The position numbers and the translations under genes are program-made. The notes under the pieces were generated by a model, which did no database searches, was not told where the DNA came from, and saw nothing but the letters and a program-made list of their open reading frames with translations. A stretch of DNA of 34,412 nt from Halobacteriales archaeon SW_7_65_23 (GTDB lineage Archaea; Halobacteriota; Halobacteria; Halobacteriales; Haloarculaceae): positions 1 to 34,412 of the forward strand of contig PXSQ01000083.1 of the NCBI GenBank assembly GCA_003022725.1, written 5' to 3'. This document shows, in pieces, positions 6,180-9,951 of the stretch (the first letter of the stretch is position 1; every line of letters begins with the position of its first letter).

Positions 6180-7229
6180 GTGCACGAGTTCGGGTTCGAA
6201 CTGGAAGTCTGTCAGTGGGCCGATCACCACTGGCCACCCGGCCGCCCGCGCGACCGCCCGGTCGTCGTCGCCCGCCAACTCGGAACGAGACGCCGGCGCT
6301 GGGACACCCTCGTCATCGAGTGCGACCCGCAAGGCCTCACAGCCCGCGCCCGCTTCGGCGAGCACCGGCTCGACAGCGACCTGCTCGGCGTCGTCCGGCA
6401 CGCGCCCGCCGAGTGGGCGTGGTACCGCGACGCCCTCCCCGAACCCGACTACCCCTGGCGGTACGTCCGCGAGGCGGTCCATCGCGCCGCCGACCGCGGG
6501 GTCGTCGAGCGCCGCCGGGGCGAAAACGGCCGGATCGAACTCCGGCGCAAGTGGCGCTACCCCGACTGGGTGGAGCGGATCGTCGCCATCGAGAACAAGC
6601 CCGACCTCGACGCCAGCGCCGCCCGCGACCTGCTCGACCAGATCGAACGCGACGTCGCCCTCGCGCTGGCCGACGAGGTGTGGATCGCCACCCGCGCGAC
6701 CGACGAGCGCGTCGAGCCCGTCCTGCTTGAGGGCGCGCCAGTCGAGGCTGGCATCCTCCTCGTCGAGGAGAGCGCCCGCGGCGCGGGTGCCGCCGAGGCA
6801 GTCTGGCAGCCCCGGTCGCTCGCCGCCGAGGACTCGGGCACGCACATCCTCGACCGCCCCGAGGGCGGCGAGCACGACGCCTCCGCCTGCCGGTTCGAGT
6901 ACGCCGACCCGGACTGGAAGACCGACAAGCGCCGCGAAATCGCCGAGCGCGCCTACGAGCGGGGCTGGCGCTCCTACGCCGACTCGATGCGCCCCGACTG
7001 CCGGCAGTTCCAGTTGCGGCCCGAGACAGCCGTCGCACGGCCGTTCTGTGCCGCCAAGGACCGCGCCCAGACACCCGGCGAGTGCTCGCAGAGCTGCGAG
7101 CAGTTCGAACCAGAGCCGCCCGTGTGGCGGACGAAGGGGTGGCCCATCGACGGCGGTCCCGGCGCGGCGATCAAACGACTGCTGGCTCGGCAACGGAATC
7201 GGCAGCGGCCCGACCCGCCGGAGAAGTAG
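6180..7229 (+). CDS. DUF5787 family protein, possible PD-(D/E)XK nuclease with Cys cluster
   Basis: GTG start; EFGFELEVC...VVARQLG...RYPDWVERIVAIENKPDLDASAARDLLDQIERDVALALADEVWIATRA...PFCAAKDRAQTPGECSQSCEQFE. Confidence 0.75.
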   Translation: MHEFGFELEVCQWADHHWPPGRPRDRPVVVARQLGTRRRRWDTLVIECDPQGLTARARFGEHRLDSDLLGVVRHAPAEWAWYRDALPEPDYPWRYVREAVHRAADRGVVERRRGENGRIELRRKWRYPDWVERIVAIENKPDLDASAARDLLDQIERDVALALADEVWIATRATDERVEPVLLEGAPVEAGILLVEESARGAGAAEAVWQPRSLAAEDSGTHILDRPEGGEHDASACRFEYADPDWKTDKRREIAERAYERGWRSYADSMRPDCRQFQLRPETAVARPFCAAKDRAQTPGECSQSCEQFEPEPPVWRTKGWPIDGGPGAAIKRLLARQRNRQRPDPPEK

Positions 7230-7570: not shown

Positions 7571-8062
7571 TCACTCTTCCGCGACGGCGACCTCGATCCG
7601 GTCGCGCTCCATCGCGAGCCGGAACGTCGGGACGGACTTGCGGACGCGCTCGACCAGCCCCTTCTCGGCCAGCGTGTGCAGCGCTGAGCGAACGTCGTCG
7701 ACGGCGGGGTCGGCGTCGGTCGTCCCCTGGATGTCGTGCAGCGTGGCGACCACGCTCTGTGGCTCCCCGTCGGCGGCGGGCAGAACGTCGAGCACCTGCT
7801 CCTGGAGAGCGGTACCGGTCACCGTGCGCAGCCCCCCGTTCTCGCCGATCTCCTCGCCGGTGATCAGCGCCTCCGCCTCCGGCGTCGCACAGATGAGGCT
7901 GTTCTCGTCGCGGTAGTAGTACTCCCCGAGGTCGGATTCGAGATAGCCGTGGACCTCGCTGCCGCTGTCGAGCGCCCAGCGCTCCTGGAGCTCCGCGTTC
8001 TTCGTCGGCTGTAACTCGACGATGTCAGCCAGCCGCGCACGCGCCTGCTCGGAGAGGGTCAT
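7571..8062 (-). CDS. DUF5797 family protein, winged-helix-like
   Basis: MTLSEQARARLADIVELQPTKNAELQERW...DSGSEVHGYLESDLGEYYYRDENSLICATPEAE. Confidence 0.8.
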   Translation of the reverse strand: MTLSEQARARLADIVELQPTKNAELQERWALDSGSEVHGYLESDLGEYYYRDENSLICATPEAEALITGEEIGENGGLRTVTGTALQEQVLDVLPAADGEPQSVVATLHDIQGTTDADPAVDDVRSALHTLAEKGLVERVRKSVPTFRLAMERDRIEVAVAEE

Positions 8063-8211: not shown

Positions 8212-9951
8212 TCACTCGACGAACGAGCGGATCCCGTCGGCGTCGCGGGCGTTGAGCACGTCGTCGGCCTCGGCCCAGCCGCGGCGGGCCGTCCGGACGC
8301 CGTAGCGGATCAGCTCGTAGCTCGCCGGCCGGTGGGCGTCGGTGTTGATCGTGATCGTCGCCCCCTGCCCGAGCGCGGTCTGGACGCGCCGTCCCGAGAG
8401 GTCCAGGCGCTGGGGGTTCGCGTTGATCTCCAGCGCCGTTCCCGCGTCGGCGGCGGCCGCGGCGAGGCGCTCGATGTCGACCGCAAGCCCGGAGCGCTCG
8501 TTGAGCCGGCGGCCCGTCGGGTGGCCGATGATGTCGACCTCCGGATGCTCGGCCGCCGCGACGAGCCGGTCGGTGCCGTCGCCGTCCAGCGCGGCGTGTG
8601 GCGAAGCGACCACCAGGTCAAGGTCAGCGAGCAGGTCCTCGCCCACCGAGATGCTCCCGTCGGCGCCGACGTTCGCCTCGACGCCCGCGAACACGTCGAT
8701 CTCGGCGTCGGCGGCGACGTCCTCGATCTCCGCGCGCTGCTCGCGCAGTTCGTCGTCCGCCAGGCCGATCCCGCCGACGGTGCCAGGGCCGGTCGCGTGG
8801 TCGGTGAGACAGAGGTAGTCGTGGCCGAACGCGGCGGCGCCCTCGACCATTTCCGCGATCGTGTTCACGCCGTCGGACCACTCGGTGTGCAGGTGGAGGT
8901 CGCCCCGGATCGCGTCGGTCGTCACGAGGTCGGGTAGGTCGTCCTCGGCGGCGGCCTCGATCTCGCCGCGGTTCTCCCGCAGTTCGGGCGGGATCCACGG
9001 CAGGGAGAGTGCGTCGTACATCCCTTCCTCGGTTTCGCCCGCGACGCGCTCGCCGACCCGCTGGCCGGCATCGGGGTCCTCGACGTCGGAGACATCGAAC
9101 ACGCCGTACTCGTTCATCTTCAGCTCGCGGTCGATCGCCCGGTTGCGCAGCGCCACGTTGTGGTCCTTGCTGCCGGTGAAGTACTGCAGCGCGGCGCCGA
9201 ACTCGCCGGGGTCGACCACCCGGAGGTCGACGCGGACGCCCTCGATCCGAAGGCTGGCCTTGCTCGTGCCCGCCTCGATGACGGTCGCCGTCTCGCGCCA
9301 GTCGGTGAAGGCGTCGACGACTGCCTCCGGGTCGTCGCTGGCGGCGAGCACGTCGATGTCGCCGATCGTCGGCCGGAAGCGCCGCAGAGAGCCGCCGAGT
9401 TCGCAGCGCGTCACGGCGTCGACGTCGGAGAGGTGCGACCGGACGGCCTCCCCCCGCGGGAGGGCCTCGCCCAGCAACTGTCGCTTGCTGGCCTGGCGCG
9501 CGAACGCGATGCCGTCGAGGATGTTCCCCTCGGTCTTCGCGCCGAACCCCTTGATCTCCTGGATCTCGCCGGCCTCCGCGGCGGCTTCGAGGTCGTCCAG
9601 CGTCCGGATCTCCAGCGCCTCGTACAGCGTCCCGACGGTCTTTGGGCCGACGCCCTCGACGCGCGTGAGGGCGTCCATCTCGACGGGGAGTTCCTCGCGG
9701 AGGTCTTCCAACTCGGCGATCTCGCCGGTCTCGAAGTACTCGATGATCTTCGAGGAGATGGCGTCGCCGACGGCGTCGATCTCGGCGACGGCGTCCCTGC
9801 CCTCGGCGGCCAGCCCCTCGATTGCGGCGGGGTGCTCCCGGATGTTCTCGGCGGCCCGGCGGTACGCGCGGGGCTTGTACTCGACGCCCTTCGCCGCCAG
9901 CAGGTCGGCGAACTCCTCCAGGCGGGCGGCGACCTCGTCGTTGCGGCTCAT
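8212..9951 (-). CDS. polX: DNA polymerase X family with C-terminal PHP domain
   Basis: HhH motifs VEGVGPKTVGTLYEAL; GGSLRRFRPTIGDIDVL nucleotidyltransferase; GDLHLHTEWSDG, TDHATG, NTDAH PHP motifs; 579 aa. Confidence 0.93.
   Translation of the reverse strand: MSRNDEVAARLEEFADLLAAKGVEYKPRAYRRAAENIREHPAAIEGLAAEGRDAVAEIDAVGDAISSKIIEYFETGEIAELEDLREELPVEMDALTRVEGVGPKTVGTLYEALEIRTLDDLEAAAEAGEIQEIKGFGAKTEGNILDGIAFARQASKRQLLGEALPRGEAVRSHLSDVDAVTRCELGGSLRRFRPTIGDIDVLAASDDPEAVVDAFTDWRETATVIEAGTSKASLRIEGVRVDLRVVDPGEFGAALQYFTGSKDHNVALRNRAIDRELKMNEYGVFDVSDVEDPDAGQRVGERVAGETEEGMYDALSLPWIPPELRENRGEIEAAAEDDLPDLVTTDAIRGDLHLHTEWSDGVNTIAEMVEGAAAFGHDYLCLTDHATGPGTVGGIGLADDELREQRAEIEDVAADAEIDVFAGVEANVGADGSISVGEDLLADLDLVVASPHAALDGDGTDRLVAAAEHPEVDIIGHPTGRRLNERSGLAVDIERLAAAAADAGTALEINANPQRLDLSGRRVQTALGQGATITINTDAHRPASYELIRYGVRTARRGWAEADDVLNARDADGIRSFVE

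Follow-up and report, generated by a model that had tools for sequence, protein, structure and literature searches.

DUF5787 in haloarchaea: two ancient paralogs predicted to be PD-(D/E)XK nucleases, one ending in a PIP-box-like tail

Several described protein groups resemble the haloarchaeal family DUF5787, which occurs as two copies, A and B, in one part or another of their architecture. The archaeal PIP box has the consensus QXXhXXaa; PCNA binding has been described for FEN1, NucS and NreA, the Pyrococcus abyssi NucS carries its PIP motif at the C-terminus, and the consequence of removing the tail from NreA has been reported (PMC4929162). With NucS/EndoMS (PF01939) DUF5787, on its predicted fold, shares a PD-(D/E)XK core, in which an ExK motif is followed by a glutamine at a near spacing: 13 positions in NucS as against 14 in copy B (ExK-x11-Q) and 14 in haloarchaeal Cas4, copy A being two longer than B. 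EndoMS/NucS is also among the top fold matches of a model of DUF5787 residues 1-200. However, an Sm/OB-like domain stands at the N-terminus of NucS, which lacks a Cys4 site, whereas DUF5787 has a predicted winged-helix insert and a Cys4 tail; NucS occurs in 22/40 genomes of the order, as against 109/118 for DUF5787, and a Pfam scan up to E=10 returned no match to the NucS_C profile. The Fe-S nucleases of the Cas4/AddB/Dna2 type (PF01930, PF12705) are similar in the ExK-x11-Q of copy B and in having cysteines that flank the core on both sides, but DUF5787 differs from them in cysteine number and spacing, in a QxxxD in place of QxxxY, in the winged-helix insert and in having neither a CRISPR nor an AddA partner. 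The MmcB-like DNA-repair proteins of bacteria and phages, also of the PD-(D/E)XK kind, are among the best matches in the viral fold library (E-values of about 0.003-0.2, with probabilities as high as 1.00 and TMt reaching 0.53), but the matched proteins come from bacterial phages and, at about 140-190 aa, are too short to accommodate the insert and the Cys4 tail. Finally, haloarchaeal FEN1 and NreA carry at the C-terminus a PIP box formed like that of DUF5787-B, the FEN1 tail being nearly identical; their folds are unrelated to DUF5787, and the likeness is confined to the tail.

The window, i.e. the whole stretch of 34,412 nucleotides from Halobacteriales archaeon SW_7_65_23 that was analysed, contains one member of the family in an intact frame, with a GTG start at 6180 and a stop ending at 7229. 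The choice of start codon agrees with the relatives, which share the opening M-x-E-F-x-F-E-L. The Pfam match spans residues 29-311 and covers model positions 1-278 of 278, with a score of 389.1 bits against a cut-off of 25 bits. This bears out the family assignment made in an earlier, sequence-only reading, and the residue strings quoted there were all found in the 349-aa protein at the places given. Its statement that the family has no assigned function also stands: no family in NCBIfam, PHROGs or PADLOC matched the window protein, a PDB sequence search (single-sequence and profile) gave nothing meaningful, and DUF5787 is mentioned nowhere in the literature searched. With no NCBIfam, PADLOC or PHROGs match, nothing marks the gene as one of defence or of a phage. 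A viral or CRISPR origin was rejected; the viral contigs searched held no relatives of either A or B. The features of the locus are as follows:

6180-7229, + strand: DUF5787 gene, A-type paralog, 349 aa (PF19100, E=1.9e-116; start backed by relatives)
6186-6230, + strand: predicted helix α1 (residues 3-17), carrying E3 and E7, both invariant, and the near-invariant C11 (6210-6212)
6261-6323, + strand: predicted strands β1-β2 (residues 28-48), bearing RQ(L)G and D42 (6303-6305), the candidate catalytic aspartate
6375-6548, + strand: winged-helix-like insert (residues 66-123) between β2 and β3, from the AlphaFold elements and Foldseek matches
6570-6599, + strand: predicted strand β3 with the ExK motif E138-N-K140 (6591-6599)
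6612-6662, + strand: predicted helix α2, with Q154 (6639-6641) and D158 (6651-6653)
6999-7097, + strand: four conserved C-terminal cysteines, C274 (6999), C290 (7047), C302 (7083) and C306 (7095), a probable metal site
7113-7208, + strand: A-type-specific tail aligned as EPPxWRxxxWPIxGGPGxxxxRLLxxRR, in the place of the PIP-box tail of B
7571-8062, - strand: convergent neighbouring gene for DUF5797 (PF19110, E=6.7e-68), present in the loci of 40/66 relatives

Residue conservation was read from an alignment of 105 rows, of which 86 are A-type (the type of the window gene) and 19 B-type; 66 haloarchaeal relatives were collected from public genomes. D42, in the WDTLVIE segment, E138, Q154 and D158 are each retained in 105/105 rows and K140 in 104/105, and E3, E7, R32, Q33, R39, Y127, P128 and W130 are likewise invariant. 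An additional 20 loci, 19 of them B-type, present the same picture. Judged from these sequences, the pattern is far beyond chance. One B protein (B_L098, genome G114) has IENNPDL in place of IENKPDL and has thus naturally lost the predicted catalytic lysine of the ExK motif.

The AlphaFold model of the A copy, built from the A-type alignment (pLDDT 84, pTM 0.83), arranges these residues in the order α-β-β-[insert]-β-α-β. Helix 3-17 is followed by strands 28-35 and 40-48, the latter bearing D42, by helix 50-59 and by the module at 66-123; strand 131-139 then carries E138, with K140 just beyond it, helix 145-161 carries Q154 and D158, and strand 166-172 follows. Modelling residues 1-200 alone gave the same fold order. 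The predicted model thus shows the core order that defines the PD-(D/E)XK superfamily, with the aspartate on β2 and the (D/E)xK on β3. On α2 the invariant Q154 and D158 are the counterpart of the RecB-family QxxxY, the QxxxY that marks Cas4, AddB and RecB nucleases being altered in every member by an Asp at the +4 position. Foldseek matches of the right superfamily comprise the MmcB-like proteins, the restriction enzyme PaqCI (probability 0.96), EndoMS/NucS, SfsA, BbvCI and OkrAI; none of the matches in the fold libraries reaches E<=0.001, and unrelated folds such as glycosyltransferases occur in the same lists. Profile comparison of DUF5787 with haloarchaeal Cas4 and NucS by hhalign was not significant, and the positive control, Cas4 against NucS, was likewise not significant, which leaves this comparison without weight in either direction.

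Within the core, the module at 66-123 consists of elements predicted at high pLDDT (helices 66-74, 82-85 and 93-105, strands 109-113 and 119-123), and the winged helices of Fur, Zur, MecI and MarR are among the Foldseek matches of the DUF5787-A models. Going by the order of secondary-structure elements, the nuclease core seems to be interrupted between β2 and β3 by a winged helix. Invariant D/ExK/Q residues and the modelled order together support the window protein as a PD-(D/E)XK nuclease, as the sequence-only reading had proposed, even with fold matches that are weak. Its candidate acidic position in WDTLVIE falls on the predicted β2 as D42, the helix it placed after the ExK is present in the model, and the D, ExK and Cys positions that it singled out for a conservation check proved nearly all invariant, the non-conservation of Cys or ExK that it named as damaging being absent. 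We place DUF5787 among the PD-(D/E)XK nucleases, as a novel variant outside the Cas4/AddB group.

The cysteines form the second conserved set. C274 and C306 are present in 105/105 rows and C290 and C302 in 104/105, the sole exception in each case being a gapped row, and in the window protein they are spaced C274-x15-C290-x11-C302-x3-C306. C11 is found in 85/86 A and 17/19 B proteins, with Ser or Ala in its place in three sequences, and C48 of the "IEC" string is not conserved. The four C-terminal cysteines, to go by their conservation, could by themselves hold zinc or an Fe-S cluster. A PD-(D/E)XK nuclease in which they form a plain zinc site that shapes a C-terminal module is a reading to which we give not quite an even chance: exactly four cysteines are always conserved, which suffices for one zinc, and Cys4 zinc sites are common among archaeal DNA enzymes, but the CxxC pair of a zinc knuckle is absent and the near-invariance of a fifth cysteine, C11, is left unexplained. 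The sequence-only reading had instead been reminded of the split Cys arrangement of Cas4 and AddB nucleases, under which a 4Fe-4S cluster would be bound by N-terminal and C-terminal cysteines together. The conserved cysteines at both ends are real, as is an ExK-to-Q spacing that resembles Cas4, and irregular spacing that is devoid of CxxC knuckles is probably commoner in Fe-S than in structural zinc sites; however, their number and spacing differ. Cas4 sequences from the same order have one N-terminal Cys and a C-terminal C-x2-C-x5-C, i.e. three C-terminal cysteines, whereas DUF5787 has four that are never substituted, even as C11 gives way to Ser or Ala, and its QxxxD stands where these enzymes have QxxxY. 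Because of the C-x15-C-x11-C-x3-C spacing and the replacement of the N-terminal Cys in three members, the Cas4-type cysteine pattern was rejected, and we regard a Cas4/AddB-type cluster as unlikely, if still worth weighing.

A second DUF5787 copy (B), 34% identical to the window protein, is encoded elsewhere in the same genome (G000:C19:6835-7680, - strand; locus L089), and this duality is the rule across the order. DUF5787 was found in 109/118 genomes, and exactly two matches occur in 100 of those 109; three genomes have three matches (in one, G162, a single copy is split in two pieces) and six have one, four of these six being less than 80% complete. The nine negative genomes fall into three families (f5, f31 and f35). 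In a phylum-wide genome sample the family was found in no other order. The search also recovers it in Haloferax volcanii, a model for archaeal DNA repair. A tree of 15 genomes, each contributing one A and one B, recovers A and B as reciprocally monophyletic with support of 100/100, from which we conclude that the duplication predates the sampled haloarchaea. On these counts and this tree, the DUF5787 of canonical haloarchaea is a pair of ancient paralogs, which is a new finding. The breadth of this distribution, the lack of viral relatives and the lack of a match to any defence family suggest a housekeeping role.

The neighbouring genes fix no function for DUF5787. The DUF5797 gene is convergent with and downstream of A in a conserved linkage, with no functional tie seen; its own matches to PqqD-like models are weak and sub-threshold. 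From position 8212 to about 9950 on the - strand, two genes from DUF5787-A, lies a PolX-type gene (polymerase β-like plus PHP, from a reading of the protein). PolX is found near A in 9/66 related loci, and apart from this minority case no replication or repair gene was among the conserved neighbours checked at the A and B loci. Some of the neighbourhoods could point another way, namely to proteins with the predicted fold that act on RNA, a nucleotide or tRNA, or that serve as winged-helix DNA-binding regulators, and are not DNA nucleases. A NUDIX hydrolase gene precedes A on the same strand in 50/66 loci, within 500 bp in 42 of them (e.g., L027:4342-4836, just upstream of A), whereas the window has in that position an FMN reductase gene on the opposite strand; B in most loci stands beside, and divergent from, the genes for aIF2gamma, a PIN protein and rpoE1; and the inserted winged helix would suit a regulator. 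Nevertheless, A and B alike keep the predicted catalytic residues invariant, which would be needless in a pure regulator, and the probable clamp-docking tail ties B to DNA, so we consider these alternatives improbable.

The two copies differ in that tail. The B protein of the window's own genome ends in EQSGLDQFGGS, which is PIP-box-like; in a first B set Q-x-x-L-x-[RQ]-F stands at or near the end of all 19 proteins, and in a second set all 19 have a like ending with F or Y as the aromatic, giving Q-x-x-L-x-x-[FY] in 38/38. In the A-type relatives the motif occurs in 0/85, and the window protein also lacks it; a C-terminal PIP box of the QxxhxxAA type, as expected of a PCNA-interacting protein, is found in copy B and is absent from the window's copy A. 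Positive controls from the same order gave the tail QTGLD[RQ]W-T/S for FEN1 and Q..L..F for NreA where the correct frame was read. In the background, drawn from the fetched loci as a small filtered set of ORFs, 7/938 gene-like ORFs match the tail motif, three of them being DUF5787-B entries (two from the same gene), and the remaining matches, about 4/935 other ORFs, are apparently incidental. A DNA pattern search for such tails in the window's own genome gave four matches that look accidental, the B copy not being among them. We consider it very improbable that the motif in the B tail is fortuitous or unrelated to PIP boxes: most B copies do lack the second aromatic of QxxhxxAA, but so does haloarchaeal FEN1 in its single-aromatic QTGLDRW, the background is low, and the motif is conserved in 38/38 at the extreme C-terminus. 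Based on sequence, the B tail is very probably a PIP box. The A-type tail is strongly conserved among A proteins and absent from B, and is possibly a partner-binding segment.

We favour, as likely on balance, the reading that DUF5787 comprises metal-ion-dependent DNA nucleases of the PD-(D/E)XK superfamily that function in haloarchaeal replication or repair as a pair, A and a clamp-tethered B. The nuclease core would be built from helix α1 with E3 and E7, D42 on β2, E138-x-K140 on β3 and Q154 and D158 on α2; D42, E138 and K140 would carry out metal-ion-dependent DNA cleavage, the inserted winged helix would probably grip the DNA, and behind the core would come a Cys4 site that binds Fe-S or Zn. 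The family would have duplicated before canonical haloarchaea diversified, the window gene being copy A. The PIP box at the end of copy B makes it probable that the PCNA sliding clamp brings this copy to DNA, as it does FEN1 and NucS. For DUF5787 as a whole, a structure-specific nuclease in replication-coupled repair is the most likely predicted role. A bolder and rather improbable proposition is a signature repair system of haloarchaea, in which two ancient Fe-S nucleases of the PD-(D/E)XK superfamily, B tethered to the clamp and A free of it, would act jointly, possibly as a heterodimer, in an Okazaki-fragment or repair pathway that is not known from other archaea.

A 2012 survey of core haloarchaeal proteins listed 55 signature clusters, one alone of which had a predicted function (PMC3287961). 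Should the favoured reading of DUF5787 be true, a core haloarchaeal family that has been without a function would gain one, as a near-universal pair of unstudied predicted nucleases, and the archaeal PCNA interactome would gain a non-core partner, a nuclease whose clamp-docking tail resembles that of FEN1.
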